Positions 8,829 through 57,879 of a stretch of DNA of 64,000 nt are shown here, piece after piece. Source of the stretch: Suillus spraguei (taxonomy: Eukaryota; Basidiomycota; Agaricomycetes; Boletales; Suillaceae); NCBI GenBank assembly GCA_016800925.1, contig JABCPU010000001.1, positions 496,001-560,000 on the forward strand, given 5' to 3'. Position numbers and translations under genes: made by a program. The notes under the pieces are model-generated. The model was not told the DNA's origin. It saw nothing but the letters and a program-made list of their open reading frames with translations, and did no database searches. The stretch's first letter is position 1, and the number at the start of each line of letters is the position of its first letter.

Positions 8829-11800
8829 CTACTCTTCATCGCTTGCCATCAGGTATTCATCATCACTGACCACATCAATCACGTTCCGAGGCCTGCCTCG
8901 CTGCAGCCGCTTATCCTCATCCATAGGCGTAAGCGCGGTGTCATATGCTGCAGAGCTTGAGGATCCACCTAGAGCTGATACATCACCTGCTTTTGTTTTT
9001 CGTCCTTTCTAGATGTCAACGATTTCATCAGAAGAACTTTCTAAAGCAACACCCAAAATTAGCTTACCATGTCACGCTCTTCGTCGTCATCATCGATCAC
9101 CGAAGGAGTCATAGACATGGACTTCATCCCAAGTTTCCGCTTGCCAACCGTACCAGGTGTATCATTGGCAGTCATCTTCCCCTTCCCCTTCTTCCCTTTG
9201 CTCCCGACACCCACATCCGACGCCGGAGTATTACGGCCAGGTGGATCAGTTTCCTTGAGAAGCTTGTATGCACAGGTCAGGCGTTTCAACGTAACAATAA
9301 TTGAAGGTCAGCGTACTTTTGCAATTTTCCGCCCTTCCGACAAAACAACGAGACACGACTGTAAACCCTTTAGACACCACTGCCGTTCGAGCCAAGCGAG
9401 GAGATACCGATTCCAGAATGACTTAAATATTCTCTCAAGCATGTCATTCCATGGTGGAGGAGATCGCGAGAGATGGAAAGCCCAGTTTTGGCATGCATAC
9501 TTGAGAGCATCAGAGGTTGATTGACTTCGCTCCCGTGCTTCGGTTGCGAAAATCGTGAACGCAGTCACAGCATAGATGACCTCGATGTCTGGGCAATCTT
9601 GCAGAGATGCAGATGTAGAATGATCCTGGGACCTCAACGCCAGGAACACGGGAAACATCAAGAAATCTGGTAAGCTCTTGAACTCCTGGATTGCTTGAAA
9701 AGCTGATGGTAAATGCAATAGTGGGACATCTGTACACTTGCTGATTGTTTCAAACGTGTTCGAGAAGTCTTCCATCGCCACCCAGACAGATGCTGCAGGG
9801 GTCAACTGCCATGCTTGTCCATGGGATGTCTCAAGCCACCCTCGCCCGCTCTGGGTCTGTAGCCACTCTCGTCCGCCCACCGCCTGTAGCCACTCTCGTC
9901 CACTGAGGGTTAGCAGCCACTCTTGCCCACTCTGTGTCTGTAGCCATTTTTGGCCATGTTCCGTCTGCAGCCCACCTAGGGTTTGCAGCCACTCTCGTCC
10001 GCCTGAAGTCTGCAACCACTCTCGCCCTCCAGCGGTTAGGAGCCAATCTTGTGCATTCTGGGTCAGTAACCACTCTTGCCCATTGTGGGTCAGTAGCCAC
10101 TCTCGCCCATAAAAGGTGCATAGCCATGCATGCCCAATCGGAGTCTGGATGTTGCCCTGCCACTCTCTCCCACCCTGTGTTCGCAGCCATTTTTTCCCAT
10201 ACTGTGTCTCCAGCCACTTTCGCCCGCTCTCCGCGTCCAGCCACTTGCATCCTCTCTTGCTGTCCAGCCACTTACGTCCGCTTTCAGTGTCCAGCCACTT
10301 TCGTCCGCCCTCCGTGTCCAGCCACATTTGCCCGCTCTCGGTGTCCAGCCACATTTGCCCGCTTTCGGTGTCCAGCCACATTTGCCTCCTCCAGGTGTCC
10401 AGCCACTTTCGCCCGCTCTCGGTGTCCAGCCACTTTCGCCCGCGCTCGGTGTCCAGCCACTTTCGCCCGCTCTCCGCGTCCAGCCACTTGCATCCTCTCT
10501 TGCTGTCCAGCCACTTACGTCCGCTTTCAGTGTCCAGCCACTTTCGTCCGCCCTCCGTGTCCAGCCACATTTGCCCGCTCTCGGTGTCCAGCCACTTTCG
10601 CCCGCTCTCGGTGTCCAGCCACTTTCGCCCGCTTTCGGTGTCCAGCCACTTTCGCCCGCTTTCGGTGTCCAGCCACTTTCGCCCGCTCTCGGTGTCCAGC
10701 CACTCTCGCCCGTTCTCGGTGTCCAGCCACATTCGCCCCCACCTGGTATGCAGCCACATTCGCCCCCACCCGGTGTGCAGCCACTCTGACCCACCCTGGG
10801 CGTCTAGCCACTTTCGCCTACGTTTGGTGTCCAACCACTTTCGTTCGCTCTCTGCGTCCAGCCACTCTCGCCCGCTCTTGGTGTCCAGCCACTTTCGTCC
10901 GATCTCCGCGTCCAGCCATATTTGCCCGCTCTCGGTGTCCAGCCACTTTCGTCCGCTCTCCGCGTCCAGCCATATTTGCCCGCTCTCGGTGTCCAGCCAC
11001 TTTCGCCCGCTCTCCACGTCCAGCCACTTTCGTCCGCTCTCCGCGTCCAGCCATATTTGCCCGCTCTCGGTGTCCAGCCACTTTCGCCCGCTCTCCACGT
11101 GCAGCCACTTTCGTCCGCTCTCCGCGTCCAGCCATATTTTCCCGCTCTCGGTGTCCAGCCACTGTCGCCCGCTCCCCAGGTCCAGCCACTTTCGTCCGCT
11201 CTCCGCGTCCAGCCATATTTGCCCGCTCTCGGTGTCCAGCCACTTTCGCCCGCTCTCCACGTCCAGCCACTTTCGCCCGCTCTCCATGTCCAGCCATTGC
11301 CCGCTCCCGTTGTCCAGCCACTTTCGCACGCTCTCCACGTCCAGCCACTCTCGCCCAGGAGTGGTTTGCAGCCAATCTCGTCCCTTCCAGGTCTGCAGCC
11401 AGTGTTGGCCACTCGGGGTCTGTTGCAACCATGCTTGTCCGGTCGAGGTCTGAAGCCACTCTTCGCCGCGTCGGCTCTGCAGCCACTCTTCCCCAGTCTG
11501 TGTCTCCAGCCACTCTCCCCCGCTCTGGGTCAGCAACCATTTTCTCCCGCCCGGTGTCTCCAGCCAACCTGGCCCGCTAATCGTATCTAGCGAGTCTTGC
11601 CCGTTCCAAGTCACCAATGGCATTTGCTCGCCAGCATCTCCGGCAACCTGTAGCCGTCTCTTCTGAGTCCACAACCACCCTGGCCCACTTTGCAGCCACT
11701 CTCGCCCCCTCTCTGTCCGCAACCAAGTGTCCCCCGCATGGGTCTGTAGCCAATGTCCCCCGCCCCGGGTCTGCAACCAGTCTTCTCCTTTCTGAGTCTG

Positions 11801-13474
11801 CAGATAATCTTTCCCATCTTGGGTTTGCAGCCATGCACGTCCGTCCAAAGTCTCTAGCCAGGGCCGTAAACCCAGCCTGCGACCTCCCCGAAGCCATAAC
11901 AGACCCATGAGAACACGTAGTGGCTCTGGCGGTTCGACGACGAAGCCTAATGATTGTTGCAAGCACTTGGGGTCGTGGGGTTCCATAGCCCCATTCTGTG
12001 ACTTCAATTCTAAGAGAGCATCCATGAGAGCAGTGCGTTCTGGAATTTCTTGCATCATCAAGCGGAAAGAAGAATAAGCGAGTAGGGAATCTGGTGCTGT
12101 GATGGGTTGTGATCCAAGGAGGCTGCAGTTTGAGGAATCTGAAGCATAGTCACGAATCGACGAGTGGTAGATATTCACGGGCTGGTCGCCGTCGGCGGGA
12201 ATGTCTATGAAAGACCGTAACTGTACAAGTGTGGTCACGATATCTTTGCCTTGACCAGGGCCAAGGAGTTTCAAAATCTGTGACATCGGTAGAGGGTCTG
12301 CAAGCGCAGCAACAATGGACAAGTGCTGATATGCCCGGCTGGGGTCCGAACAGGTTGCGAGAATACGGTTGTATAAGTCGTACACTTCCGTTCCAGGAAG
12401 CAATTCATTGGTCAGCTCGAGCATCAGCTCAAGGCGATCCCGGGGGTCATTGTATCCGTCATCGACAAATTTCATCATTGTAGAAGCCACAATGAAGCGT
12501 CTCCCAGCTCGGTTCGACAGCCGCGTAAGCTTATCTGCACTGGGCTGCGGGAAATCAGGATGGCTACTTTGCAGCTCTGTGAAGGAATGCTGCAAGAAGA
12601 TATAGATGTCCTTGTCAACGTCTTCGCCGTCTAACGAAATCGTGCCAGCAACGCCTCGTCCAGAAGTGTTCACTGGTATCTCGCACACCAGTGTGCGCAT
12701 CTCTTCTTTTTGGACGGCTTTGCGGATACGCTCTTCTGGACGACTTGTAAGTAAAATGTGGATCACGGGAAGCTCAGGGTCACGAAGAGCTTCGCCAAGG
12801 AGGGAGATGAGATCGGCGACGGTTTCAGATTTGCATTCATCGAGGGCATCGATAACAAACACCGGATGCGGACACCCAGGCTCGCACAGCCTGGATTTCA
12901 GGTGCCGGAGAGGTCTGCAGAATAACACCTCCATCTGGTCGCGGAGAGAACTATCGGGGTTTAGAACTGCAGGCTTCTCGCGTATAAATCTGTCCATGTC
13001 GTTCTTGACGCTGGGAAAATTGGTCGCAAGCTGGTAAGCAAGGGTCGCAAAGAAATGACCAGTCGTGCTGCGTTTTGTGTGCTCGCGCGAGAAAAAGAAC
13101 GTCCCCGCAAGCCTTGTTTCGACTGTCGTCTCCTTTGTCATTTTCAGACCTTTCATCGTCTCAGCTACAGTGAATGCCACAGCAGACTTTCCGACGCCTG
13201 CCGTGCCATGCAGCCAAATAATTCGACTCCCAGGCTCCTTACGCTCCACTGGCCTCTCTGGGTTCTCTAGCGCCTCTAGCTCCTCCGGCTTTTCTGGGTT
13301 CTTTGGTTCCTCCGACTCTGGCCGCTCCGGCTTGTCCAATAGTCCATGGATGAATTTAAGAAGGTCTATCCGAGTCCCTTTCAAACATTTTGGATGGGGC
13401 ACGCGTTCAGGGGAGTCATATTTAGCACCCGGCACAGCAACGTTGGACAGCTTTTCCCAAGGTCCTTCGGCCAT
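8829..13474 (-). CDS. NACHT NTPase with about 76 nine-residue Trp-Leu repeats (NLR-like), paralogue 1
   Basis: The proposed join is complement(8829-9008, 9068-9262, 9317-13474), 1510 residues, starting at MAEGPWEKLSNVAVPGAKYD. Domains in order: a short N-terminal segment with YDSPERVPHPKCLKGTR; a Pro/Glu-rich insert; Walker A HGTAGVGKSAVAF (about residues 88-100); Walker B VFVIDALDEC (about 205-214); HILLTSRPEERI as sensor; a helical arm; about 76 tandem nonapeptides (about 537-1226, consensus WLDTESGRK); a C-terminal cap beginning VWVAMEDF; and a tail rich in Lys then Asp/Glu that comes from two small 3' exons (introns of 54 and 59 bases). STAND NTPases of this type switch on ligand binding and act in fungal self/non-self recognition. 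The Trp-Leu array replaces the usual WD40, ankyrin or TPR sensor. The start could lie in a further upstream exon. Confidence 0.8.
9795..11862 (-). repeat. In-frame array of about 76 x 27-base units
   Basis: The array codes for the nonapeptide repeats of the surrounding NACHT gene. Units between about 10190 and 11370 are nearly identical (core ccgctctcggtgtccagcc), while those at both ends are diverged. A nine-unit block starting near 10219 recurs exactly 243 bases later, near 10462, showing recent block duplication. Almost all length changes are multiples of 27, so the frame stays open. Confidence 0.93.
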
Positions 13475-13845
13475 TGCTAGAAAGTTGTCAGTCAGATCAG
13501 AGAGTAAGAGATGTGAGGAGACATTACACTGATCTCTTTTGATAAACGTTGATGATGGAATATGACACAAAATGTGAGTTAGCACTAGTCAAGTTGAACG
13601 GTGTAATCAGAAATTGTTATATTGATCGATATCTCGGAGGGGGCAACCTACGACAACGCTAATTGAACAATCAAAGTCTAATCTGTAATTCGTTTGAAGC
13701 AAAACGGGTTGAGTGGTGAAACGATCAAGCAACGGGGATATAAGCAAATGTTTGAGATGATCAGCGATTGGTTGCATGCAAAGGACGATCAGGCGCTTAT
13801 CTGGCTGCTGCACACCCACGGACTTCAGGATTGGTTTTAACTTAA
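13475..13845. other. 5' flank of NACHT paralogue 1
   Basis: An intron-like stretch ends CTTTCTAG just before the proposed ATG and may follow a small first exon, as in the two other paralogues. No ATG exon comparable to theirs was found. No other gene is seen. Confidence 0.35.
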
Positions 13846-14167
13846 AATGGTTTAGTTTGATTTGCTACTACGTGCTGTAGCACTCAACAATTACTGTAGC
13901 ATAAGTTTTGCCACAGCGCTTCCCATTGCTTCGAAGCACTACGTAGCTCAAAACATCTCCATGATGCCATAGTATTTACTTTTTTAATGGTATCACCAAC
14001 AGTTGAAACATCAGCGCTCATCGAGAACACGATCATCAAAGTCATCAGTGAGATGTTTTGAGCTACGTGGTGCTTCGTAGCAATGGGAAGCGCAGTAGCA
14101 AATACAGTAATTGTTGAGTGCTACAGTAGCTCGCGTAGCACGTAGTAGCAAGTCAAACTAAACCATT
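13846..14167. mobile_element. Foldback MITE with long terminal inverted repeats and TTAA flanks
   Basis: The left arm (13846-13967) starts AATGGTTTAGTTTGATTTGC and the right arm (about 14048-14167) ends with its near-perfect complement. Inside the arms the blocks TGCTACTACGTGCTGTAGCA, CAACAATTACTGTA, CGCTTCCCATTGCT and AGCTCAAAACATCTC all have inverted partners. TTAA lies on both sides (13842-13845 and 14168-14171), as expected for piggyBac-type integration. There is no coding capacity in the roughly 80-base loop. The complementarity extends past the TTAA into CTTCAGGATT, so the exact ends are uncertain. Confidence 0.8.
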
Positions 14168-14748
14168 TTAATCCTGAAGTTCGAAAGTCCCGGAGCCAGT
14201 ACGAATGTTTTAGTTCTTCCAGCTGCTACTGTTGTTTCAAAAGAAGCACTGTGCTACGCGATGCTACGAGTCACTGCGCTCGGCAGTGGGTTTCCTGATG
14301 TCAACTTCCGCTGTGGCTGTGCCCGGATGGAATCAGCACAGGAACTCACCGTGACTCACAATTTGTCAGAAAATTCAGAATTTGCCATACAGTGGAATCG
14401 AGCAACTCATCCAGATGGTCTGATTTATTTACTGTTGGAAATGCTTGTTTTTCGCCATGAACTGGTGCGAGGACGTGTTGTGGTTGGGAATATGTACGCG
14501 TACCGGTCTCCGTCCGAGTCACGCGACTTTCAACAATTTCCTTTTCGGTGCGATATTACATTCTAAACTTGCAAGCAACAGAAACTCATCTGTAATCCCT
14601 TGCGGATTGAGTTACCCATTGTTTCAAGTACGAAAATAAAATAGCTTTCCGGCATCCCCTGACTCAACATGCCTCGCGCTCAGAGGTCCATGCTTGCCTA
14701 TAAATTTCCCGTATTTTTCAGCCTGAGATTCGTCATATACCACCATCC
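14168..14748. other. Intergenic region before NmrA-like copy 2
   Basis: A 101-codon open stretch on the plus strand (14261-14566) has no recognisable domain. The last 60 bases hold a TATA-like ctataaatt and the immediate 5' flank of the NmrA-like gene. Confidence 0.35.
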
Positions 14749-15820
14749 ATGTCTCTCTACACCTCTTTCGCAGTTGTAGGTGCAGGCCCCACAATCGGTG
14801 GCCGTATCGTGAAGGCAGGACTCAATAATTATTGATTGGTGCTTCTTCAGTTTATCTGACTGTTTGATAGGCTTTGGTTGAGCGAGGCGCTTCAGTAGTT
14901 GCTCTCGTTCGACCCTCGAGTACATCAATATCGAGCCCACTCCTCGAGGGCGCTAAGGTTGCCACGGCTGACTATACTGACGTCAAATCAGTGGCCTCCA
15001 TTCTCCGCGAGCATAAAGTGGAGGTCATGATTTCTGCAGTGGCATACGGCGCATTGTCTTCGCAGTCTACTTTTGCTGATGCTGCCAAGGAAGCCGGCGT
15101 GAAACTTTTCGTTCCCCCTGAATTTGGTTTGCCCACGGAGGGAGGGAAGGGCGGTCACATGGTTATCAAATCACAGTTCGCTGGTGAGACTTTTTGTGCT
15201 TGGTTTGGTTACAAGTCACTGAATGCTGGTGTTATCGTAGACTACCTGAAGTCACTGGGCATTCCTTCATTGCGCATATACGTAAATGACTGTTATTCCA
15301 TGTATCCGGCAAAGCTAGTAACACCTTTTGACATAGAATGGAATGTTCATAGAGTTCATTCCACAGTTCACTGGAGTCGACATTGGGAAGTTCTTGGTCC
15401 TCGGCAAGGGTGATGCATCTTTTTCTACCACTGCCCTGGACGACGTTGCAGGTATTGTGATAATCATTTTTCAGTGATCATAGTGACATAGGATGCAATC
15501 TAGGTTTTACCGCTCACATTCTTACATCACTCCCACCGATCAAACTCCATGATGCCACGTTCCGTATCGAGGGAGAACGTACATCCTTCAATAAAGTTGG
15601 TGCCCTGTATGCATCTAAAAATATTGTAGTGGAGCATGTCACTTCCCTTCCCGAAGGATTCGCCAAGTCGACTCTTTTGCAAGGGTTATTCGAGCAGGGC
15701 CGGGGCAGCTCTGGATGGGACAATTACGCTGACAAGGACGTCCCGGAGAATGCTTGTAGTGGTAATGCAGCGTGGGCTGGGCACCAGTGGAAGAGCGTCA
15801 AAGAGGTGTTGGAATTGTAG
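14749..15820 (+). CDS. NmrA-like / isoflavone reductase-like NAD(P)-dependent protein, copy 2
   Basis: Exons 14749-14808, 14871-15183, 15241-15281, 15337-15451 and 15504-15820 give 281 codons plus stop, the same lengths as copy 1. All coordinates are exactly 8040 higher, including intron lengths. The Rossmann loop VVGAGPTIGGRI is unchanged. Differences are mostly single substitutions (for example LFVPPEFGLPTEG against LFVPSEFGMPTEG), and both copies look intact, so the duplication is fairly young or under selection. The first intron has the same GT (14809) or GC (14815) donor ambiguity. The gene converges on the complete laccase with about 180 bases between the stops. The exact substrate is unknown. 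Confidence 0.86.
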
Positions 15821-16003
15821 ATCTTTAAAGCGGCTGCTGGTTCATCTGCATTCCGAATCGTTGTATCACGAGTCCTCTCTAGTCTGAGTTGCGCTCAACC
15901 GTCTTTACGTTCAACCGTTCGACGTACATCATCATTCTCTACACAACAATTATCCAGCTTGCATGACTTCCTAGAAGGCACCAGTATGCCCAAAGACTGC
16001 ACA

Positions 16004-18124
16004 CTAGTTGAGCACCGCACCCCCACTCTGCTCTGTGCATTGACTACTCAAATAAGATGGTATCTGGAATTCCTGTATTTGGCTTGGTAGACTCGCAAAC
16101 TGCATCAGCAACCCTGCAGCCATGTGCCAGCCAATATGACAGTGAAACGCCCAGAGCCCTGGGTTATCAGTGATGAAGCGAATGGCGATCCAGCCGTAGC
16201 CGGGAAGAGTCAATGTGTCGCGTCTCGGCGGGTTGGTCGTATTGAATTGTGACACCCCAGACTCATAAAGGCCATCACCTTCACCAACAATCCAAAATAC
16301 GTGCCCATGAAGATGGAATCTACACAGGGCGTCAGTCAAAAGAATTTAGGACTAATATATAACCAATGACACATACGGGTGGCTAGCATCATCGTAGTTA
16401 TTCAGGATTAAGTCAAGGACAGTGATATTATCGTTGACAACGACAAGCTGGTTTTCATCGAAGACAGTTTGGATCCCAGCCTGCGACATCTGCAGCACAG
16501 TAGGATTTGTGGTGTCTGCTAGCCAACTCGTGGTGTTCATGTATGCCAGCGTTTGTGTTCCGCCAGATTGAGTTGTTTGCTGGAAAGACATAAAGACTTG
16601 AACAGTCTCCGTACTGTTGGGTGGGTTCATGGCGATTTGTGGTACAATCATTGAGTTGTTGAGGTCGAGACAAAGCATGGGGTATGCGTCTGCCCAATTT
16701 TGGGTGTTCGGCGTCGTTTGAGAGGCGCCGTATGTCATCGTAGCCAGCACCATTGTGTCGAGTTCTGGATTATCGAGCTTGTAGCAAGAGCTCTGCATCT
16801 CTGCACGTACATTGTACGATCCTGCTGTCTGATTTGTGGTCAAGATAGCAGAGTAGCGCTGTGCGACGTGTATAGGGACACGGTGCACATCCACCGGTAC
16901 AAGAGATGTCCCGTCCGCTTCAACAACGCTCAGCATGTGCGAGTCTACGCTGAATATGAACTGCGTCAGTGAGCCCATATTGATGAGACGAAGCCGATAG
17001 CGCAAATTTGGTTCAAAATCAAATGAGGAACCAATCATCTTGCCGTTGATGAGACCGCTATTCGGAGGAGGTTCCGCTCCAGGGTTAATTCCACCATAAT
17101 TAGAGCCATCAACGCCAGCGGAGCTCAAGTACTGAACAAGCAATCCGGAAGACGGCACGTCATACCAATCTGAAAAAGAGAGTTGTCGTGAGAATACAGA
17201 CAGAAACATAATACGGATACAAACCTGAAAGTATGACAAGCGCATCGCGGTCGTATTGACCATAAATAGGCTCACTGGGAGAGTGAATTACAAGCGGTCC
17301 GTAAATGCCGTCTGTGTACCTTGTTTTATCCACGTCAGTCCTAAGGAGAAACTACCATGTGCTGCAGATGTTTACTGTGTGGATGCATGAGCATGGTACC
17401 AAAACGTGCCGTACTGGTTTGGATTAATGGTAAAACGATACGCTAAATATATTAGACTCGTGGAAACGTGGTCACAAGAAGCAAACCTACTAAAATTCAT
17501 TCCTGGAGGAATAGGGCACTGAGTGATACCGTTGGTGCCATCCATGTAGTTGGTCCCGTTTTGAAGTTGACCATGCCAGTGAATAGTGGTGCCGTTGGGT
17601 AATTGGTTGAAAACATTAACCACAAGCTCATCACCGCTGTTCACCTCAATAAGAGGGCCAGGGAATTGATCTAAAATTATATCAGCGGGATCATCATCAT
17701 GTATGGAGTATAGAGTAACATGACGTACTGTTTACCACCAACATAGGTCTCTGGACACCATCAGGTGAGCCAGATGCTTCAGATATGGTGAATTCGTAGT
17801 ATCTGGTTGTTGTTGTATTCGTAATAACAAAATCCTGATCCAGGAGAAATGAAGAGTTTGTCGTGACATAGCTCGTGTTCGATGTCTTCTTCAATCCCAA
17901 TCCGAGGCCCAAACCAAGAGCCAAAGCGAGCACGACGACAATGACACCAATTGTGCCTGTGATTATGAACAACTTTCGACGACCTATTGGAAAATCTAGT
18001 TGGAATCAAATCAAACAGGTGAGACGCAGGGCCACGAACCACTCCGCTGGATGGGTGTCTTGTTTAAAGCCTGGCCCTCATGGTCGCTCGAGCTACCCTC
18101 CTTCGAGAGTGGCATCGTAGACAT
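16004..18124 (-). CDS. Laccase-type multicopper oxidase with N-terminal membrane anchor
   Basis: Seven exons, complement(16004-16319, 16377-17169, 17225-17319, 17376-17442, 17491-17670, 17729-17983, 18040-18124), join in frame to 596 residues. All four copper-ligand motifs are present in order: IHWHG, WYHAHAST, HPFHLHGH (spanning the last intron) and HCHIGWHMAAGLL. Leu occupies the position beside the type 1 copper, as in many basidiomycete laccases. The enzyme couples one-electron oxidation of phenols or metals to reduction of O2 to water. Unusually, there is no cleavable signal peptide. A cytosolic tail of about 30 residues is followed by a hydrophobic segment (LFIITGTIGVIVVVLALALG) with a Gly/Leu continuation, so it should be a type II membrane protein with the catalytic domain outside. 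The first intron donor (GT at 18039) is the least certain junction. Secreted laccases are usually about 500-520 residues. Confidence 0.9.
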
Positions 18125-18825
18125 CGTGAAAAAGATGTTGCCCCCTGAGGCGCCTATCCGCTCTATATATGCTAGAGATACAGAGATGCACGTTTGTAGT
18201 GATTATTTTGAAGACAGGGACTAATCTGAGTCAGTGATGTATATATCCATCTGTATGAGATTAGGATCCTGAATAGTCGAGGATGATCAATTTAGAACGC
18301 TCGCACACAATACAAATCACCCACAAAGTCCACCTGCTGGCAGGAAGTGGGAAACAAGTGAGAAGAATGAGTCCGCTGATTTGTAGAAAGGCAGGCGCTG
18401 GCCATAGGCTTTTGCGGTTGGCAAATTTAAATGACCATTATATAACTTGAGAATCGCCGTCTGCGTCGGTAGAAACCTTGCTTAATCTAAATGTTAAGTT
18501 GGTGTTCAAGTATGACTTCGTTTCAGCCTCAGCACTTACATGAAAAAGCTACATTACATCACATCATGTGGTCATGTGCTCAGATACAGTTGGTCGTCAT
18601 GTCAAACAAGGTAATCAAGCACGCTGAACAACTTCATTGAAGTTATGGTTTAAAAGTGCCATGTGCCATAGGCTGAGAGGTGGATAGCACGGACTAAGTT
18701 ATACATACGATAGTATGAAACTGGTATTGCAAATAATTATATAGAAATGGCAGCAAACCCCATGCAACACTCCATCATCATTCGGGACCAAATGTACTAG
18801 TACTAGACCCACGATTAAAAAAAGA
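18125..18825. other. Intergenic: laccase promoter side and ALG1 3' flank
   Basis: No gene seen. The first 150 bases upstream of the laccase contain a possible TATA element (ctatatatgc near 18161-18170). Low-complexity AT-rich sequence follows to the ALG1 stop. Confidence 0.4.
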
Positions 18826-20825
18826 TCATTCTGGATCTCCCACCACTAAGGGTTTCACAACACGGTTCCAGTTCTCTGACCAAGAACCCCATTCCCAATT
18901 ATCACCTTCCTGGTGTTCGTGATTATAGACACGATGTTCGACATCGAGCGGTACCAGCAATGCCCGCTGCAAAGTTGTCCGTAAGGAATCGAGTGCAGGT
19001 GAGGAAGGAAAAGAAGTCAGCAGGGTCTATGACGCGTAGTCAGTCTCCATGATATCGTAGGGAGGGCGAGTCACACCTCCAGATGCTTTGCAAGCTCAGA
19101 TGCATTCTTGAAAACCAGGCCGTTAATACCGTCTTTGACAAGCTCTGGAAGACTACGAATGCGGCTATAAATATGACAGAGGCTTAAACACGCGGGCTCT
19201 CACCATGCAAAATCGAGGGCGCAAACGGGGAGTCCGCATCCGAACATATCAACGATCTTCATTGGTAAATCGAGCGCGGACGAACTTGAATGCAAGGAGA
19301 CGCCCAAGTCAGCAGAGCCTAGATAATATTAGTGAACGAACTTGTGACCATGCACGAACGACTTACCTAGCAAAAGAGGATAGTCTTCGGCTTCAAGCCA
19401 TAAACTCGTACACCTGACATACTGCCAGTTTTTTTGCAATAGCTCCACTTCTGCCATGAATCCTTCTTTAAGCGGCCCTTTGCCTGTGATGACCATCCAT
19501 ATGCGAGGCAAGACTTGTCGTTCCTTTGAATCGTGTTTTGATTGCGAATTCTCACAATTTGTAAGGTTTACTTCACGAGCACGAGACTCGTAGAGTTTCA
19601 ATGCCTCCAGGAGAATACCAAAGTCTTCGTCTGATGTCCATGACGTACTACTCACCAGCAGTGCCGGGCGATCTCTTCGAAGACCGGGCGTACTCAGGGA
19701 GTTAAGAGCGGACGGGCGAGAAGCCGAATACGTGGAAGTCCGTGTATTTCGGTGAATTGGGTTGTGTAAGGCAGTGAAGCACTGGGGAGAAAATCTGCAA
19801 GTGATGGTGATATCGAGCGTCCCAGTCGTATGAAGAACTACAACGAAGGTGTCAGACACCACCGGATGTAAGGGTCTCTTGTGTACCTCGTGGACTTCTA
19901 GAGGTAGGCACCTATGAAAGTGGCTGGGTGGACGATCATGCAAGACCGCTTTGTGTCCTCTGGAACCAGTAATTAATTATAAGTCGATACAGTAAACAAA
20001 AAAACAAACGTCAAACCCCATTCCTGCTCCAGATGGTTTCGCATAGCGGTTGTGACAAAAAGGTGAGCGTAGGCAGACCTGCCAAATGTGATCTCAAATC
20101 TAAAGGAGGATGGTAAAGAATGCTTGGAACAGATGATGATGAACATACCGTTTCGCAATATTGACTAGCAAATGTGTTCTTCCCAATTTCAATGCGAGAA
20201 TGCTATACCCAAGGTTATGCCAGTCGATGATTATTTTGCTTCCCATCATCCGTCCGACAAGCCACACTAAAGCGAGAGTGGGAATACTTGGAGGATTCTG
20301 CAAAAATGTATTCGAGTACTGAAGGTTGCAGCGACGGGTATGTCCATACCTGCACCATGATAAACTCGGGCGGGCGGGGTATGTCAAAGACTAGCGTATA
20401 TAGAATGGTGACTATCTGGTATAGAATTTTGATCGGAGCAGCTAAAATAAAAGGAATCTGGGTAACGAGTGGTGGTGATTCTGACAAGTAGCACAACCTG
20501 ATATCCGGGAGGGAGGTAAGCGAAGGGATCGGCTTGGAGCCTGACGTGTCAAATGTCAGTCTAAACGAATGCAATACCGGCATTGCTCACCTTTGTATCC
20601 GATGAGATAGGTGTCAAATCCCAGCTTCGCAAAACTCTCTGCATGATACATCATTCGCGGACTGCGTCCCACATCACCTAATACGAGAATGGCGACTGAG
20701 CGCAATTTCGGGGTTTGTCGCACCTTTTGGAAGACATTTACGATAAGGAACACCAGGAGCGCAAAAAAAGACGATGCTAAAAATGTAAAGAAATGGTGAA
20801 AATCACGACCTTCGTTTGCTATCAT
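18826..20825 (-). CDS. ALG1: Chitobiosyldiphosphodolichol beta-mannosyltransferase
   Basis: Nine exons (boundaries 20825-20591, 20540-20350, 20297-20149, 20099-20017, 19957-19912, 19794-19367, 19318-19204, 19164-19077, 19026-18826) join in frame to 511 residues. ALG1 adds the first mannose to the dolichol-linked GlcNAc2 core on the cytosolic face of the ER. Diagnostic stretches are an N-terminal membrane segment ([18 protein letters not shown]), [71 protein letters not shown], and the C-terminal [20 protein letters not shown] with [13 protein letters not shown] and [11 protein letters not shown], all as in the family. One intron (19795-19911, 117 bases) is longer than the others and may hide a small extra exon. 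This is the clearest single-copy housekeeping gene of the window and lies between the laccase and the NACHT cluster. Confidence 0.92.
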
Positions 20826-21616
20826 CGCTGCATCAGGGACTTGAACTTCATGAGCGCTTGAGCACCAAATATCACTTACCTAATACCTATACGTTTATGT
20901 TTGTTCCTATTTTGAACCAAAGCGGGCACCGCGCATGCAGCTGTCGCTACAAAACTTAAACCAAACAAGAATCTCATCTAATTATGTAGAACAACTCTCG
21001 ATCTTTATCGTTTCCATCTCGAAAAGTGCTGGTTTTTCTAAAGACTGTTAAATGACTAGTACGTGCAAGGTAAGACCATACAGACAATAAAATACATTTT
21101 AAAGTACATCTAGTTATACATGAATTCCGCGTGTAGTGCAAGATGCAGGATGCATAGTGAGTGAATGTCAGATATGAATGCAAATGGGTAGTAATGATAG
21201 ATAATGTCAGGGTCAGTGATGGTGTCAGGCTGTACTACGGGTAAGGGGGTGGTGGAGAGTATGCGCCTCAGACGAATGCCTTACGGCATGGATACCATCA
21301 CCGAGGCAAGTCAAACTCATCTTCGACGATCTGCGAATCTGAAACGGTCGGCGGGAACGACAGACCAGCTGAGGTAGCCCTCGCATGCTGGAACATGTCG
21401 ATACAGGATAATGCATATAAATTGGAACCAAAAAGGGGATAAGAACCGTCAGCTGCTTATGGGGGTAGGTGAATAGACGTATAGATAAGGTGGTGACGGG
21501 AGACGTCGAAAGGCGATGAAAGAAGGGAGAGGGTGGGGATGCACTCGGAGGTGTCGAGATGGGGAGAAGGGTGCGTGAAGGCGGTAGGTGTATGCAAGAG
21601 GTGGGATAATGAGTGA
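20826..21616. other. Intergenic region between ALG1 and NACHT paralogue 2
   Basis: No gene recognised. The part near 21457-21616 may be 3' untranslated sequence of paralogue 2, or coding if its last intron is not spliced. Confidence 0.35.
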
Positions 21617-24605
21617 TTATGGAGCTTGGAGATGTGCCTACATGCGCAGGTCAAGCGATGAGTCACAAAAATCGCACACATACACACCTGTGCAAGTCTC
21701 TGCACTTCGGATAAGATAATGAGGCAAGAGTGCAGACCCTTCAAAATCCACTGCCTTTCGAGCCAAGAGAGGAGGTGACGATCCCAAAAGAGCTTAAACA
21801 AATGGTTGAAATCGTCGTCCCATAAGCTCGGAGCTCGGGATAGATGGAAGGCCCAGTTTTGGCATGCATAGTCGAGAGCACCAGATGTTGATCGACTCTG
21901 TTCCCGTGCTTCTTGTGCGAATACCATAAAGGCTTCCATAGCACGTACGATCTCCATGTTTGGCCGGGGACGATCTTGTGGTGATTCAGGAGTGGAATGG
22001 AGCCTCAACGCTAGGAACGCTGGAAACATCAAGACGTCGGGCAAGCTCCTGAACTGCTGGATGACTTGAAATGCTGGCAGCATGCGTAATTCTGGAACAA
22101 TCGTGTACTGTCTGATAACCGCGACTGTGCTGGAGAATTCTTCCATTGCTACCCACACAGACGCTTCAGGAGTCGACTTCCAGTCTCGGCCATCCTGGGT
22201 CTGCAGCCAGGAATGTCCGCATTCAGTCCGTAGCCATTCTCTTCCAGCCTGGGACTGCAGGAAATTTGGCTCGCCCTCGTCGCTGAACTGCTTCCGACTC
22301 GAAGCTCTATCAATAAGGAATAACTTCGAGGCTTCTTCATCCTGGTTCTGTAGCCACGCTTGTCTGGCTCGTTTTTGTAGTTGTGTTGGCGCAGTAGTCT
22401 GCGACTTCAGCCATGTTCGACCAGGTTGGGATTGCAGCCACTCCTGACCGCTCAGCGTCTGTACCCACTCCCACCCGTTCAACGTTCGTAACCACTCTTC
22501 CCCGCCCTGGGATTGCAACCACTGCCGCCCGTCGTAGGACTGTAGCCAATTTCGCCCGTTCTTGGACATCAGCCACTTTTCTCCACATGATGAATATAGC
22601 CACACTCGCCCCGAGTGCGTTTGTAGCCATGCCCGTCCACCTTGCAGCTGTAGCCACTCTCGCCCACCCTGTAACCGCAGCCACTCTCTCCCGCCGCGGG
22701 TCTGCAACCACTCTCCTCCACCCTGGTCCTGCAGCCAATCTCGACCTGCTTGATCTTGCAGCCAGGAATGCGCATCTTCAATCTGCAACCAATCTCGTCC
22801 TTCTGAGGTGACCAGCCAGCCTAATCCTTCTTCAGTCGATAGCCAGGGTCGCCCGCCCCCATTACGGAGCCAGCGTCTCCCGGCCTGGGTTGGGAGCCAG
22901 TTTAACCCGTCCTGGGTCTGCAACCACGCTGAGCCATGCTGGGTTTGCAACCAGGTGTACCCGCACTGAGTCTGCAGCCAGTCCTTTCCGTCCTGGCTTT
23001 GCACCCAAGCGCGTCCATCCAGGGTCTCTAGCCAGAAGTATAAATCTGGACTGCGACATCCTCGAAGCCATAGCAAGCTTATAAGGCTTGCATTGGCTCC
23101 GGTGGCTGGACGATGAAAGCTAACGACCGTTTTAAGCTCTGGGGGTCATGAAGTTCTATGGCTTGACTTTGCTTGACCAGTTCTGAGAGAGCTCCAGGGA
23201 GGGCCGTGCGTATTGGAATGTCTCGTATCAAACGTAATAAGGATTCAGCGAGTAGCAAGTGGGGTGGTATGATATCTTGTACTCCAGGAAGGGCACACTT
23301 TGATGGGTCTAAAGCGTAGTCGCGAACGGACGAGTGAGAGATATTCACGGGAAGACACCTGTCGACAGGAACATCTATGATCGAACGTAGTTGCACCAAT
23401 GTCGTCTCAACATCACTGCCTTGAAAAGGGCCGAGAAGATTCGAGATTTGTGGAATAGGTAGCGGATCTGCAAGAGCGGCAACGATGGACAAGTGTTGAT
23501 ATGCCCGCTTGGGGTCGGCACATGTGGAAAGGATAAGGTCATATAACTTGTAAACCGCTGTGCCTGGTAAAGAGTCGCAAGTAAAATCGAGCATAAGCTC
23601 AAGCCGATCGTGGGGATCCTTTTTTCCATCACTGACGATAAATTTGATCATCGTAGATGCCACGATGAAACGTCTGCCTGCTAGGCTAACCAACCGCGTG
23701 AGTTGATCTCCTGATGGTTGAGGGAAACCGGGATAGCGATGTTGCAACTGTGTAAAGGAATGCTGCAAGAAAATATAGATGTCCTGGTCGACATCTGCGT
23801 CGTCAGATGAGAAAATGGCACCGTCCATCGGTATCTCATTCACCAGCTGCTCATCTAAGTTCCTAATGGCTTCACGGATATGTGACTTGAAGCGACTTGT
23901 GAGGAGGATGTGAATCGCTGGCACATCAGGATCACGAAGAACTTCGCCAAGCAGGGAGATGAGAGCGGTAACCTCGGTTTCGGATATACATTCATCAATA
24001 GCATCAATGACAAACATCACTGGCAAAGACTCGGCCAATCTGAACCGAAGCGTCCGGAGATGTTGGAGAAACAACGCATCCATCTGTTCGTGAAGCGACT
24101 TGTCGGGACCTAGAAGAGCAGGATTCTCGCGTATAACTCTGCTCACGTCCTCCCGGATGCTAGGAAATTGGTAGCAAGCTGGTATGCAAGCGTTGCGAAA
24201 AAGTAGCCAGTGGTGCATCGCTTCGTGTGCTTGCACGAGAAAAAGAATGTTCCGCCAAGTCGCTTTTCATTAGTTGTGCGGTTTATCACACTGAGAGCTC
24301 TCATCCTCTCAGCTACAGAGAACGCAACAGCAGACTTTCCGCTGCCTGCCGCGGCATGCAGCCAACTGATTTGACTCTTCCGCCGGTTGTTTAGTGTTGT
24401 GCAGATGTGGTTGAGAAGATGTACCCTGGTCCCTTGGAGACATTTCGGATGGGGCTGGCGTTCGGGAGAGTCATATTCAGCGCCCTTGTCGGCCACGTGG
24501 GACAGCTTCTCCCAAGTTTCTTGAGACGAGGAAACTGTTAATATTGAGGTCAGCGAATAAGAGGGAATGAGCAAAGTAGATATACTGACATAGATTTTGA
24601 CTCAT
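21617..24605 (-). pseudogene. NACHT NTPase with about 32 Trp-Leu nonapeptides, paralogue 2, broken by two frameshifts
   Basis: A 16-base first exon (ATG at 24605-24603, MSQNL) is joined by a 55-base intron to SSSQETWEKLSHVADKGAEYD, parallel to paralogue 3. The P-loop reads HAAAGSGKSAVAF, so the first Gly of the Walker A motif is Ala. Near 24165 one base is missing from the ccc of the LATNFPSIRED region, and near 23080 one base is missing at PPEPMQAL, each ending the frame. Beyond each break the homologous sequence continues (Walker B MFVIDAIDEC; then WLRG and about 32 repeats at 22165-23036; then the VWVAMEEF cap). A terminal intron (GTGTGT to CATGTAG) and a short last exon reading AHLQAP mirror paralogue 3; unspliced, the frame would stay open to 21457. 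Two independent one-base losses make real inactivation likely, though assembly error in short runs cannot be excluded. Confidence 0.78.
22165..23036 (-). repeat. 27-base coding repeats of NACHT paralogue 2 (about 32 units)
   Basis: Nonapeptides such as WLQTQCGYT, WLQDQAGRD and WLQLQGGRA are diverged from each other far more than those in paralogue 1. A non-repeat insert of about 45 residues (TAPTQLQKRARQAWLQNQ region) interrupts the array near the C-terminal side, as in paralogue 3. Confidence 0.88.
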
Positions 24606-25569
24606 CAACCAATGATCGATGGATGTTATGATGTAGGTTGTGTTGACGATGTACTAGTTATGTTATACTAAGTTAAAAAGTTAGAGACCATAGAATTCAA
24701 GGACGGACGTACGATTTGGATACTGTGGCCAGCCCGGGGTACTAGTAGTTGTAGAACAGCGTCAATTGATCATGAAGAGAAGTGGATGTTGAATTTTCTA
24801 GCGATTTCGACGGGTAAGAACGATGGTTATAGTGCTCAAGATGATGGAATAATGATATAGCAAGTGTAAAAGCTACTTGAAATCACTATGAAATGGTGGC
24901 CACGGCCCGGGTGTAAGAATGCGGTTGATGATCGATGAATATTTGGTCTTGCTCTTACCGCAAAGTCCAAGAACGTTAGCATGGCAATACACCTCTTTTG
25001 AATGCTTAGGTAATAAGTTGGTGCTGTTAATCGATGATGCGCGTCGTTGTCTTTTCTGCATAAACATACATAGACATGCCGGTCCGTTCCTACCTTCGAC
25101 GGCTGGTACAATTCTTGATAGACCTTTTCACCCGTCTACATGAATTCATTGCCATTACCAGGTGCGACGTACGTCGAGCTTGGCTGTGATCATTGGCCCG
25201 CATTTGTGAACATCATTATTTCTTCAACCTTCAGAAACGGATGTCAATCGGCTTTATGACGGTCATAGTTGGAATTTTCAACCTGTATTCGTTCATCACG
25301 AACATTAAAGATCAAGGTTGGAGGTGGAAGCTGACTGTCAAGAATCGTGTTTGGGCAAACAAGCAAGGTCATCGATGCAGGTACTACCAAACCCTGGTAA
25401 TAAATATATGCAATACAATTGCGATAGCAGTATCAAGATCGATAGTGATTGCAGAAAGCGACCATAGCAGTCTCTGCCGCGAGTGGCCCTGGTATGAAAA
25501 AATACATCAACGTGCAAGACTGAGATTAATCAATAAGGTGTATTGCATAAGTCGACAACTTTAACGTGT
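24606..25569. other. Intergenic region between NACHT paralogues 2 and 3
   Basis: Short open stretches on both strands (24836-25111, 25193-25564) have no recognisable domain. Nothing else seen. Confidence 0.35.
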
Positions 25570-25621
25570 TCATGTGGAATGTGCCTATATGCATACGCAG
25601 TCAGATGCCAAGTCGCATAAA

Positions 25622-28556
25622 TCATTGGGGGCACACCTTTGCAATTTTCTGTCCTTCGGATAAAATAACGAGGCAGGACCGCAGCCCCTTCAAACACCAC
25701 TGAGCTTCAAGCCAGGAGAGAAGATGACGATCCCAGAAAGCCTTGAATATATTGTGAAGCTCGTCGTCCCACGGACTTAGAGCTCGCGAGAGATGGAACA
25801 CCCAGTTTTGATATGTGTACTTAAGGGCGTCCGAAGCAGATCGACTATTGTCCCGTGCTTCCTTGGCGAACGTTACAAACACCGCCATAGCACGGACAAC
25901 CTCCATGTCCGGAAGAAACCGATTTTGTGGGAATGGAGAGGCGGAGCACTCCAAGTAATTCAACGCCAGAAACACCGGAAGTATCAAGGAATCCGGCAAG
26001 CTCTTGAACTGCTGGATCACTTGGAAAGCTGGCGGTGGCAATTCTGGGATGATTGTGTACTCGCGGATGGCCTCCAATGTACTCGAAAAATCTTCCATTG
26101 CCACCCAAACAATTGCTGAAGGAGTGGATTGATGCCGTTGATCAGGGCACTCTTGCTGCCAGGATCGCCCATCATCGGTCTGTAGCCACTCTCGCCCACC
26201 TTGAGACTGTATCCACCCATGTTCACCGCGCAACTGAGCATCTTTGAATTGGTTCAACCAGCAAGCTTCCGCGTACTGAGTTTGAAGCCACGCTCGCCTG
26301 GCCTGTATGTGCAACTGCGTTGGCCTTACCTGAGACTTCAACCACGATTGCCCAGGTTGGGATTGGCACCACTCTCGCCCACTCCGACTCTGCATCCACT
26401 CCCGCGCACTCTGCGTTTGCAACCACTCTCGCCCACTCTTTGTCTGTAGCCACTCTCGGCCGCTCCGGACCTGTAGCCACTCTTGCCCGTCCCGAGTATG
26501 CATCCACTCTCGCCCTCCCTGCGTCTGCATCCACACCCGCCCAGGCAGAGTCTCCAACCAATCTCTCCCACGTGAGGTTTTCACCCAGTCTCTCCCTCGT
26601 GAGGTCTGTAACCATATTTGTCCACCCTGAGTCTGTAGCCAGTCTTGTCCACCTTGGGTTTGTAGCCAGTCTCGTCCACCCTGGGCATGCAGCCACTCTT
26701 GTCCACCTTGGTCCTGCAGCCAGTTTCGTCCATCCTGGGTCTGCAACCAGTATCGTCCAACTTCGGTCGGAAGCCAGTCTTGCCAACCCTGGTTCTGCAA
26801 CCAATATCGCCCTCCCTGTGTCGGGAGCCAGTCTAATCCATCCTGAGTCTGCAACCATTCCAACGCATCCTGGGTCTGCAGCCAGGCATATCCTCGCCAG
26901 GTCTGCAGCCAGTCTCTTCCATCCTGCGTCCCCAACCAGGCGCGTCCATCCAGGGTCTCTAGCCAAAAGTGTAAATCTGAACCCCGATATCCCCGAAGCC
27001 ATAGCAAACCTATGAGAACTTGCATTGGCTCTGGTGGCTGGACGACGAAGGCTAATGACTGCTTTAAGCGTTGGGGATCGCGGGGTTCCATAGCTCGACT
27101 TTGCTTGCTCAATTTTGAGAGAGCATCGAGGAGGGTCATACATCTTGGAGTGCCTTCCATCATCAAGTGTAGACAAGATTTGGCGAGTAAGGAGTGGGGT
27201 GATATGATATTTTGTATGTCAGGAAGCCCACAGTTTGAGGGGTCGGAAGCATAGTCATGAACGGACGAGTGAAAGATGTTCACAGGAAGACAGCTGTCGG
27301 TAGGAATATCCATGAGTGACCGTAGTTGCACCAACACTGTCTCGACATCACGACCCTGACCAGGACCGAGGAGTTTTGAGATTTGTGCGATAGGTAGAGG
27401 GTCTGCAAGAGCGGCAACGATAGACAGGTGCTGGTATGCCCGCTTGGGGTTGGCACATGTGGAAAGGATAAGGTCATACAACTTGTATACCTCCGTTCCT
27501 GGTAAAAAGCCATGCGTTAACTCGAGCATGAGCTCAACCCTATCGCGCGGATCCCTGTATCCATCATTCACAATAAATCTGATCATCGTAGATGCCACAA
27601 TAAAATGCCTGCCCGCTCCGCTAGCCAGCCGGGTGAGTTGATTCACTGGTAGTTGGGGGAAATCGGGATAGCGATGTTGCAACTGTCTGAAAGAATGTTC
27701 CAAAAAAATATAGATGTCATGGTCGACATCTGCGCCATCTGACGAAAGTACGGTTGCAAAACCCTGTCCAGTATCTCTCATTGGTACCTCGCACACCAAC
27801 GGGCGTATATCATCGTCCTGAATTGCTTCATTAATATGTGCCTCCGAGCGACTGGTTAGCAAAATGTGGGTTATAGGTAGTTCGGGATCACGAAGGGCTC
27901 GGCTGAGCAGGAAGATGAGATCAGCAACCTTGGTTTCGGACGGGCATTCATCAAGGGCATCAACAACGTATACCAAAGGCGGACACCCGCTCAGCCTCAA
28001 TCGAAGCTTCCGGAGAGGTTGCAGAAAGAGCGCTTCCATCTGGTCATGAAGAGACTCGTTGGGGTCCAGAAGCGCCGGATTCTCGCGGATAGCTCTGTTC
28101 ACGTCCTCCCGGATGCTAGGAAAATTTCCAGCAAGTTGGTAGGCCAGCGTGGCAAAAAAATAACCAGTCGTGCATCGTTTTGTGTGCTTCCGCGAGAAAA
28201 AGAATGTTCCAGCAAGCCGCTTTTCGTTAGCCGTTTGATCTGTCACTTTCAACGTTCTCATCCTCTCAGCTACAGTAAACGCAACCGCAGACTTCCCGAC
28301 GCCCGCCGTGCCATGCAACCAAATAATATGCCCCTTCTCCCGCTTGTCCAAAAAATTGTGGATGTAGTCGAGAAGGTCCACCCTGGTCCCTTGTAAACAT
28401 TTGGGATGAGGCTGGCGATCGGGGGAGTCATATTCAGCGCCCTTCACAGCAACCTGTGACAACTTCTCCCAAATTCCCGCAGACGATGGAGAGACTATAA
28501 ATGGGGTCAGATAGAGAACGAATCACATAGATACACTGACAAATATTTTGATCCAT
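25622..28556 (-). CDS. NACHT NTPase with about 32 Trp-Leu nonapeptides, paralogue 3, apparently intact
   Basis: A 16-base first exon (ATG 28556-28554, MDQNI) is followed by a 46-base intron (28495-28540) and one long exon, about 960 residues. Order: AEYDSPDRQPHPKCLQGTRV, Walker A HGTAGVGKSAVAF, Walker B VYVVDALDEC, HILLTSRSEAHI, a helical arm, then repeats at 26115-26975 such as WLQTQGGQD and WLQTKSGRE, a short non-repeat insert, and the cap VWVAMEDFSSTLEAIREYTI. The frame has no break. At the 3' end a donor at AAG/GTGTGC and an acceptor near 25585 would replace the last residues VCPQ by AHST, ending at 25570, as in paralogue 2; both ends are possible. It lacks the long charged tail of paralogue 1. 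Likely role: intracellular NLR-type sensor, inferred from architecture only. Confidence 0.82.
26115..26975 (-). repeat. 27-base coding repeats of NACHT paralogue 3 (about 32 units)
   Basis: The units are moderately diverged (WLQTQDGLD, WLPTQGGRY, WMQTQGGRE and so on). The Trp-Leu pair and a Gly six positions after Trp are the most constant positions. This gives a cleaner view of the ancestral repeat than the homogenised array of paralogue 1. Confidence 0.88.
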
Positions 28557-32839: not shown

Positions 32840-33610
32840 TAGGCATGAACACCAGAAGATGCGGATATCACCACTATCGAGATTACAGTTCTTACCTCGT
32901 ACATCTGTGCTTTTGTCCTGGAGGGTTAGAACATACAAATATCACTGCTATCAAGCTGTATTTTGTTACCTCGCATATTTATGCTTTGTGTGTGAGACCG
33001 ATATGAGAACCAAATGATATGGATGTCAAGGCTCTTGAGCTGTATTCCATCACCTTGCACATCTATGCCTCCTGCCTGAGATGAACATGAGAACTGAAAG
33101 ATATAGATATTGTCCTTGTCACACTGTGTTCCATTACCTTGTACATCTATGCCTTGTGTCTGAGATGGACGTAAGAACTAAATGATACAGATGCCACCGT
33201 TCTTGACCTGTGTTGCGTTGTTTCGGATATTTATGCTTTCTGTCTCAGACAAATTTAAGAACTCGAATATTTATCACCCTGCAAATCCATGCTTTCAGTC
33301 TGAGACTGACATGAGAACCAGATGATACAGATATCAAGGCTCTCGAGCTGTATTCCATCACCTTGCACGTCTATGCTTTCCGCCTGAGATGAACATGAGA
33401 ACTGAAAGATATAGGTATCATGCTTGTCGCGCAATGTTCCATTACCTCATATGTCTATGCCTTGTGTCTGAGACGGACACAAGAACTAAGTGATACAGAC
33501 ATCACCGCTCTCAACCTATGTTGCGTTACTTCAGACATTTATGCTTTCTGTCAGAGACGAATATAAGAACTCAAATATTTGTCACCCCGCAAATCCATGC
33601 TTTCTGGCCT
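32840..33610. repeat. Satellite-like tandem repeat, units of about 75-95 bases
   Basis: About nine diverged units share the order 'atgctt(t)..gtctgagac.gacatgagaac', 'gatacagatatca' and 'cctgtgttgcgttacctt'. A higher-order period of about 300 bases is visible: the stretch from about 33000 is repeated, with changes, from about 33300. No open frame is conserved between units. Confidence 0.8.
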
Positions 33611-45600: not shown

Positions 45601-47660
45601 TTGATGAGGGGGAAGTTGTTCAGCTTTGCCTTTGTTGAAGACATCTGTGAAGTCGTGGTACTCGGAAGGGATTCTGGAGAGGTCTGGAGGATCGGATGAT
45701 ACAGATGCGGATCGAAGATTAACTTTGGAGGGACGGAGGTAGATGCTGAACTGAGTAGATCCTTCTAACTTGCAGGCATGGCAAAAGGCCACTGCATTTA
45801 TCAAAGATATGTTAGGGACTGAAGTGCCAGCAGAGGGTTTGGATTTGGTCAGAGGAGGAGTCTCTGCCATGGATGGGATGCTCTGAGGCAACGGAGATAT
45901 TGGAGGGGAGGATTCTTCATTGGATGAGATACCTGGAGGTAACAGAGGTGTCGGATTGGATTTTCCTGCCATGGACAGTGTGTCTGGAGGCAGCGATGAT
46001 GCGGATGGGGTTAATAGCATTCCCTGTACAGTAGTTCGGAACTTGATGCTGCCCAATACCCAGTCAATCAATGGATTGTGTCGGGTGAGCCAGCTATATC
46101 CGAGAACGATATAACATGAGGAATCCAAAGGGGTGACGTAGAACGTGTCAGAGGTGATTACACTGGAGGAGAATTGGACAGATAAGTTTATGGCTTCGAC
46201 AATATTGTTATTGCATGTACCATCAAACAAACGGAGCAGAAGCGGAGGAATCTGATAGGTGGGAATTTTATATTTTCAGACGAAATCAGTGTGTTACGAC
46301 CATGCAAAACCGGAGATTAGTAAGAAGTCCTGGTCTTACATGGGGTTGTACCGGAGGGTTGTAAAGTCAAAGGGGCTTGGCCTCAGCTTGTACGCTGTGC
46401 CCCTTACCCGAGTATGTGCCCTTAATTTCGGATGAAGTCCAAGGGAGAGTTCTGGTGAAGTCCAGATGGAGGGTCCGGATGAACTCTAAGGCAGGATAGC
46501 TCGACAGAGCTCTGATGGACCTCCGGATGAGTGCAGGAATGCACCGGAACAATTTCCAGAAGGTAGGGAGTAATGGTAACACTACTGGAACAAGCTCCAA
46601 GTAGAACAGATGAAGGATGGACCGCTGGACAAAGTCCAGGGCAGGATAAGAGCAGAGCTCCGGAGGGAAAGATGATCCATAGATGTCAGAGGATAGGATA
46701 GGATGGATCTGGAGGACTAGGGGTCCGAAGGTCCGGAGCTCAGAGGAGCAGAGGAGCAGAGGAGCAGAGGAGCATAGCTCTGTGGATCTTAGAGGAAGTG
46801 TTGGCTACTAGAGAGGAGTAGGTCCGGATATGGTGTAGAGATAGTATAGACTACTCCGGACAAGGTCCGGAATAGAAACAGACAGTATAAGACTACCAAA
46901 GGTAGAGTCGGAGGTGAAACAGATGATAGATGGAGATGGACGAAGTCTGAAAAGATTATAGGACATAGGATCAAAGCTCTGGCCTAGGGAGTGATCCCAT
47001 AGGCCTGAGTTCAGAAGCTTACAAGGGCCGGAGCCCAAGTGCAAGAACGGGAACGGAGTTATATAGACATGATAACAGGATACAGAGTAATCAAAGGAAT
47101 ATACAGAAGTAGGAACAATGAATCAGACTAAGGTCTGCAGGAGTTGTACTACAAGTTTATATACTGTAGGAGCATGCCGGAGGGTAAGTACAGATAGTCC
47201 GAGGCTATGTCTGAAGCATACGGAAACACATTAGTAAGTACAGCGGGACATAAGACTATGAACTCGGAGATGAAGCTTGTACAAAATACTTATCAAGATG
47301 GAGGCAGAGATCACTGAGAGCCAGAAGCACAGAGATACCCAAAAGCCGGAGACACAGGTATATTCTAAAAGGGGTGATGCGCAGGTGCGTGGGAATAGTT
47401 CGGATATGAACTCGGATCGGATATAGACACAGATCGGATATGGACACGGATTGGATATGGACATGGATGGATATGGATTGGAGTGGATGGGTGGATCAGA
47501 TATGTGAACTGGATTGGATGGGTGGGTCAGATATGTGTAGATTGGGTGTCTGGATGTCCATGGATTGGATTTGATCTAGACCTGAATGTATGGTATATGA
47601 CACAGTGTCTATGAAGCAGTGGGAGGAACCACAGTCTATGAGGGCCAGAAAGTCAGATAT
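42688..47660 (-). pseudogene. Degenerate pol of the gypsy chromovirus (protease, RT, RNase H, integrase, chromodomain)
   Basis: Reading downwards: protease active site DCGSSHCF (about 47610-47640), cut off from the rest by a family B LTR (46292-47602); LFDGTCNNN and the remaining protease fold; RT with KIDLRSTYH and VVYLDDILIYSKD (about 45080-45320); RNase H start VVETDASDY; integrase zinc finger ([20 protein letters not shown] and CTSCTRAK, about 43830-44000); integrase core ending in TSGYHPEGDRQTERANQTLE (about 43450-43520); and a C-terminal chromodomain (EYEISEILDSK, LVHWSRYEGTDEETSW, about 42720-42900), which places it among chromoviruses. Several stops and frameshifts (after DTDFV, in the RNase H and in the core) make it inactive. 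Confidence 0.88.
46292..47602. mobile_element. Solo LTR of family B inside pol
   Basis: Begins TGTTACGACCATGCAAAACC and ends GTATGGTATATGACA; exact duplication CAGTG at 46287-46291 and 47603-47607; 1311 bases. The insertion lies a few codons after the protease catalytic DCGSSH motif and would abolish pol expression. Confidence 0.93.
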
Positions 47661-51697: not shown

Positions 51698-51728
<31 letters not shown>

Positions 51729-57820: not shown

Positions 57821-57879
57821 ATTGGAGAAACAAGGATTCGACGTATGTTTCTCCCAATATATTGCTAAGGCTTGTACAT

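Follow-up and report, generated by a model that had tools for sequence, protein, structure and literature searches.

The tandem repeats of fungal NOD-like receptors (NLRs) are described, in the portions of the literature available, as ANK, TPR (with HEAT) and WD40 repeats, and shuffling of such repeats is also documented there (PMC4986451, PMC9815663, PMC10197012). The repeat unit is given as 20-40 residues (PMC10197012), and the accessible text of one of these three papers counts NLR genes among the genes regulated as Suillus forms mycorrhiza. Here we describe three NLR-like genes from a stretch of 64,000 bp of the Suillus spraguei genome (contig JABCPU010000001.1, positions 496,001 to 560,000; hereafter the window), each encoding a NACHT-type NTPase, an array of nine-residue repeats that begin with Trp-Leu (the WL array) and a conserved C-terminal domain. 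As far as the available accounts of the WD40, ANK and TPR NLRs of fungi go (HET-E, HET-D and NWD of Podospora), our proteins resemble them in joining NACHT to a tandem array, in their near-identical repeats, in their large families and in unit numbers that change between copies. By the same accounts they differ in having a unit of nine rather than 20-40 residues that those repeat families do not match, in placing the array after the NACHT/winged-helix part and ahead of a conserved C-terminal domain, and in having no recognised effector. No publication on this array was recognised, whether among studies of NACHT and NLR proteins of Suillus and Rhizopogon or among those of nonapeptide and short-solenoid repeats (including PMC13055192), in a coverage that leaves subscription journals largely outside. 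We consider it probable, with moderate confidence, that these genes represent an expansion, in Suillus and Rhizopogon, of NLR-like receptors of the STAND class (signal transduction ATPases with numerous domains) that carry a new and variable sensor array.

Periodicity and constraint of the Trp-Leu array

That three paralogues combine NACHT, a nine-residue Trp-Leu array and a conserved C-terminal domain was the original prediction, made from the letters of the window alone, and the open reading frames (ORFs) and a Pfam scan bear it out (Table 1). Paralogues 1 and 3 (P1 and P3) score 44.2 and 37.1 bits with the NACHT model PF05729 (cut-off 26.7) and 80.8 and 83.0 bits with the NPHP3_N model PF24883 (cut-off 24.8). 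Paralogue 2 (P2) also exceeds the latter cut-off and, at 24.1 bits, stays under the former. The motifs GTAGVGKS and DALDEC, at first held to be common to all three, are exact in P1 and P3 only; P2 has AAAGSGKS and DAIDEC. P3 matches the public protein P0005 with 100% identity over 99%, and P0005 has an extra short first exon. The NACHT/NPHP3_N matches above cut-off uphold the assignment to NLR-like STAND proteins: a P-loop NTPase is present, and so is a repeat array, which is predicted to form a solenoid and is not matched by the ANK, TPR or WD40 models.

Tandem Repeats Finder reports a 27-bp period in all three paralogues. In P1, 62 of the 71 pairs of Trp and a hydrophobic residue (W-pairs) have the next pair at exactly nine residues, and the longest unbroken run comprises 42 units; the same spacing holds for 24 of 29 W-pairs in P3 and 24 of 28 in P2. 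Identity of the arrays at lag 9 is 0.56 in P1, 0.47 in P3 and 0.40 in P2, far above that of shuffled arrays (at most 0.14; 500 shuffles per array), and therefore the period is not due to chance. At the other lags from 3 to 21, with the exception of 18, identity is 0.02-0.08. The array of P1, P2 or P3 is not matched by any ANK, TPR, WD40 or HEAT model of Pfam at E ≤ 1.

Codon comparison of 62 units of P1 shows that the Trp-Leu reading frame is under purifying selection at Leu2 and Gly7. The proportion of nonsynonymous differences (pN) is 0.004 at Leu2 against a synonymous proportion (pS) of 0.38, and 0.079 against 0.463 at Gly7. At position 8 pN exceeds pS in both sets of units, and at position 3 in one of two, which is a weak signal. 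Only units with W at position 1 and one of L, M, V, I, C and F at position 2 were counted, so the unit counts are uninformative about the former position and barely informative about the latter; these positions were judged instead from two alignments, A1 and A2, whose members were chosen by hand. A count of Trp-Leu without conditioning on Trp comprises 20 cases only and was not used.

Predicted structure and resemblance to RTX repeats

AlphaFold places one short helix in each unit of two arrays (P3-type and P1) and no strand in either, and the position preferences over 2349 distinct units fit a helix start. The array is thus predicted to be alpha-helical, with one short helix per nine residues. 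It had been suggested that the array may form a different solenoid or a beta-roll; the models favour a short solenoid and, being without strands, speak against the roll. Each helix would be started by Thr4, with Trp1-Leu2 at its end, and the units would stack into an alpha-solenoid of very tight build, with variation at positions 3, 5, 6, 8 and 9 and with L2 and G7 held. To our knowledge, one helix per nine residues would be the shortest alpha-helical solenoid repeat. A Foldseek search of the array model against PDB and BFVD gave no match at E ≤ 0.001. Among the best 50 rows from PDB, the leading ones are Pumilio, MO25 and HEAT/ARM proteins (best E 0.4, TM-score at most 0.37), which share the stacked rows of helices but have several helices per longer unit. 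The absence of a structural match is no proof of a new fold. A model from Bodo saltans virus also appeared in the array structure search, at E 0.027 but with a root-mean-square deviation of 17 Å.

On whether the array belongs to a known repeat family, a point on which its novelty turns, the evidence is divided. The array could be a degenerate RTX-type calcium-binding beta-roll derived from bacteria and acting as a sensor or calcium switch. Of 50 relatives that were scanned, 24 match the RTX model PF00353 at E ≤ 1e-3 (the best at 1.6e-19), and the model reaches 91.7 bits on a WD40-associated locus, L059, described below; both repeat types share the period of nine and the register G-x-D-x-L, and the best PDB match of a WL profile is an RTX chain (2.1e-5, 27.3 bits). 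However, the motif GGxGxDxU has no occurrence in 176 proteins, GG fills the RTX slot in none of 3275 units, and the WL array has a Trp in every unit, is predicted to be helical and lies in a NACHT protein. The arrays of the window are all under the PF00353 cut-off, and a P1 run has Anti-TRAP (49.9 bits) and not PF00353 among its matches. Reversing the WL profile gives a PDB match of 70 bits to the end of Spt5, and permuting it gives one of 32 bits to a LIM-domain protein, besides RTX chains at 17.8 and 16.6 bits, so that profiles of period nine evidently score this high by chance. Reversed or permuted arrays likewise score as high as 49 bits with other families of Pfam. PF00353 itself is matched by none of seven such arrays, with two natural runs at 77 and 51.9 bits, and for this reason the controls do not fully account for the match. 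With a single composed query, able to detect close relatives only, neither bacterial/archaeal nor viral contigs yielded a relative, and a bacterial or viral origin was put aside. After the controls and the helical models, we ascribe the Pfam and PDB matches to the shared period and a partial motif, and reject the beta-roll as very unlikely. A link to RTX is not established and is probably absent; the missing GG pair and the helical models speak against it.

A public entry for one such NLR, P0027, bears the name 'Ca2+-binding RTX toxin-like protein'. The RTX label on some of these proteins, which follows from PF00353, is probably wrong. The Spt5 match of the reversed profile is a warning about profile matches of period nine.

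Distribution of the array and variation in unit number

The genome searched comprises 86 Mb in 1256 contigs. It contains 81 matches to the NACHT model and 130 segments of the C-terminal domain in 106 clusters, counts that include haplotig copies and are lower bounds. The C-terminal domain lies downstream of 60 of the 81 NACHT matches (same strand, within 6.5 kb), at a distance of 218 to 1096 codons, and is found for none of the other 21; the proposed link between array and NACHT thus extends beyond the window. Remnants exist in the family, since 46 clusters are without such a NACHT match and about 30 of the 130 segments contain stops (counted by eye).

Two NACHT paralogues of the same genome are free of the array. 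L047 (760 aa, NPHP3_N/NACHT by Pfam) aligns with P0005 in two blocks (23-508 at 31% and 836-966 at 33% identity) and has 45 residues (506-550) where P0005 has 327; L048 has the same two blocks in two ORFs. Compared with WL proteins, the two are 30-34% identical in the NACHT part and 26-34% in the C-terminal domain. Because an array-free paralogue has both flanks only 45 residues apart, the array is, by these alignments, an insertion between the NACHT/winged-helix part and the C-terminal domain, and it was presumably gained, not lost, relative to the array-free paralogues. The conserved 'cap' of the repeats, as it was first named, is in fact a C-terminal NLR domain that occurs without any array, which rules it out as a solenoid cap.

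Relatives in fungi were sought through the protein lists of three queries. Of 8000 proteins scored with P3, 334 matched at E ≤ 1e-3 (the best 120 of the 334 were examined); the array half of P2 found 117, and the C-terminal domain of P3 found 37 among 416 candidates. All named relatives among the matches listed, as read by eye, belong to Suillus (19 species) or Rhizopogon (2 species), and many matches are nameless. Apart from repeat-type matches and one Cyt-b5, no other Pfam domain was found in P1, P3 or 50 members of A1, and none precedes NACHT in seven relatives whose N-termini are longer or different, where exons may have been missed. The precomputed PF27509 label of P0104 was not reproduced by a Pfam scan. 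The public models P0099 and P0104 show other nine-residue repeats (LAADPGSTR..., AGDTERESV...), perhaps the WL array in another frame.

Unit number varies within the genome, as had been anticipated. Seven near-identical locus pairs were compared, haplotigs and recent copies being taken together, and in four the difference amounts to 27-bp units, complete or almost complete. L051 and L052 are set apart by two indels of 27 bp and by five mismatches, every one of them inside the array; L039 and L040 by array indels of 54, 27, 27, 54 and 27 bp, with 4-7 mismatches per kb throughout; L049 and L050 by 27 bp; and L045 and L046 by 26 and 25 bp. In a tree of 28 proteins (P0002 and P0005 being the same), some clades hold 20-23 or 29-30 units, and elsewhere the number jumps (19 vs 52 units at 93% identity, 22 vs 29 at 95%, and 8 vs 71 in the neighbours P0076 and P0001). 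On these comparisons, both stable and dynamic arrays exist. Such erratic unit numbers, together with array-free paralogues, C-terminal-domain segments with stops and 27-bp repeats that are open in several frames, would suit a selfish or drifting open minisatellite in a dispensable NLR linker, without a binding function. We regard this as distinctly unlikely: L2 and G7 are strongly constrained in P1 while synonymous sites vary, some array lengths are kept between species at 75-84% identity, and position preferences of the helix type run across the distinct units.

The array also occurs outside NACHT proteins. At L059 (G000:C902:112000-116000), a WD40 ORF (six stretches, 8.6e-50) precedes a second ORF that encodes a WL array and ends in a Cys-rich C terminus, which might serve as a lipid anchor; neither ORF has a NACHT match. 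The public relative P0161 has WD40 and the WL array in one protein; its array ends in GQAWQ, like the majority consensus of NLR arrays in A1 and a further alignment, A5, and unlike the array of P3. The module may have been transferred between NACHT and WD40 hosts. A place after a WD40 domain without NACHT, as expected of a shared interaction module, and the position of the array inside the NLR, not at its C terminus, would suit an oligomerisation or scaffolding rod, the specific sensor being elsewhere or another protein. Yet unit number differs between near-identical loci, which is unusual for a scaffold, and the excess of pN at position 8 of P1, with the weaker one at position 3, also points weakly away from a rod. 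We judge it unlikely.

Layout of the locus and proposed role

Table 1. Coordinates of the three NACHT paralogues and their parts in the window
Feature	Position	Strand	Remarks
P1 (P0001)	9308-13588	minus	single ORF, 1426 aa; likely start Met39; NACHT, WL array and C-terminal domain
P1 NPHP3_N/NACHT domain	12704-13234	minus	residues 119-295; P-loop GTAGVGKS from 13207
P1 array	9812-11896	minus	71 W-pairs
P1 C-terminal helical domain	9308-9787	minus	the former 'cap', VWVAMEDF...
P2, overall	21457-24601	minus	spread across three frames
P2 N-terminal piece	24143-24601	minus	own frame; first half of NPHP3_N; P-loop AAAGSGKS
P2 middle piece (P0004)	23079-24266	minus	second frame; second NACHT half to near array start
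P2 last piece (P0003)	21457-23145	minus	third frame; array and C-terminal domain
P2 array	22183-23070	minus	28 W-pairs
P2 C-terminal domain	from 22158 down	minus	third frame, P0003
P3 (P0002)	25622-28522	minus	single ORF, 966 aa; NACHT, WL array and C-terminal domain
P3 array	26162-27001	minus	29 W-pairs
P3 C-terminal helical domain	25622-26110	minus	query of the genome-wide search

A continuous cluster had been delimited at 8829-28556. Both its extent and its continuity need correction, as 8829-9307 lies outside the P1 ORF and fragments of a multicopper oxidase (16352-17287) and an NmrA-like protein (14871-15413) intervene between P1 and P2. A Suillus placidus relative of P0003, P0014 (72% over 87%), is one continuous gene model. 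Pieces of Ty3/gypsy-type retrotransposons lie beside the cluster on opposite strands, at 43670-46275 (reverse transcriptase at 44518-46275 by Pfam) and at 56963-61435 (recognised only from its translation). The window further contains nested 84-bp and 308-bp tandem repeats at 32966-33604 and, at 51105-51744, a satellite with an 8-bp unit, (TCCGCTCC)n, which runs to about 77 copies and is open in several frames on both strands.

If these genes are NLR-like receptors, the array would be their recognition domain. A non-self or modified-self ligand would bind the solenoid and relieve inhibition, upon which NACHT would swap its nucleotide and form oligomers, as other STAND receptors do. Because no N-terminal effector domain is recognised, the output would be passed on in trans. 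The repertoire would change as whole 27-bp units are gained, lost and homogenised.

Several observations weigh against a receptor with a variable helical sensor. The full-length model is weak (pLDDT 62.6, pTM 0.38, with the last part of its array, 731-800, below 50), and two of the five P1 array models were failures (36.3 and 33.4). In repeats AlphaFold can predict regular helices to excess, and a helix with two glycines in every nine residues is unusual. In the fold comparison the antiviral STAND NTPase Avs3 (8dgc), whose sensor and effector differ from those of WL-array proteins, is tied in Z with Cdc6/ORC ATPases, so that this match is not specific to an immune role. L043/L044 and L053/L054 show no whole-unit difference, and L041/L042 was not used for its poor alignment outside the array; unit differences between contigs may include assembly errors, and mis-called introns may shorten unit counts in public models. 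Against its relatives in S. placidus and S. clintonianus, the P3 array aligns free of gaps and has not diverged more than the NACHT of P3 (84% vs 80% and 75% vs 70%). Finally, Pfam scans recognise no effector domain through which these proteins would signal.

More tentatively, and at somewhat less than an even chance, the WL array may be a new class of solenoid (one alpha-helix per nine residues, from a 27-bp unit): a portable, rapidly re-shuffled recognition module that has moved between NACHT and WD40 hosts and serves as the main NLR sensor of a whole ectomycorrhizal lineage. Its unit is much shorter than ANK, TPR or WD40 and is linked to most NACHT matches of an ectomycorrhizal fungus. In-frame gain or loss of a 27-bp unit would offer a simple route to receptor diversity, and two questions become testable: what these fungi recognise, and how small the unit of a helical solenoid can be.
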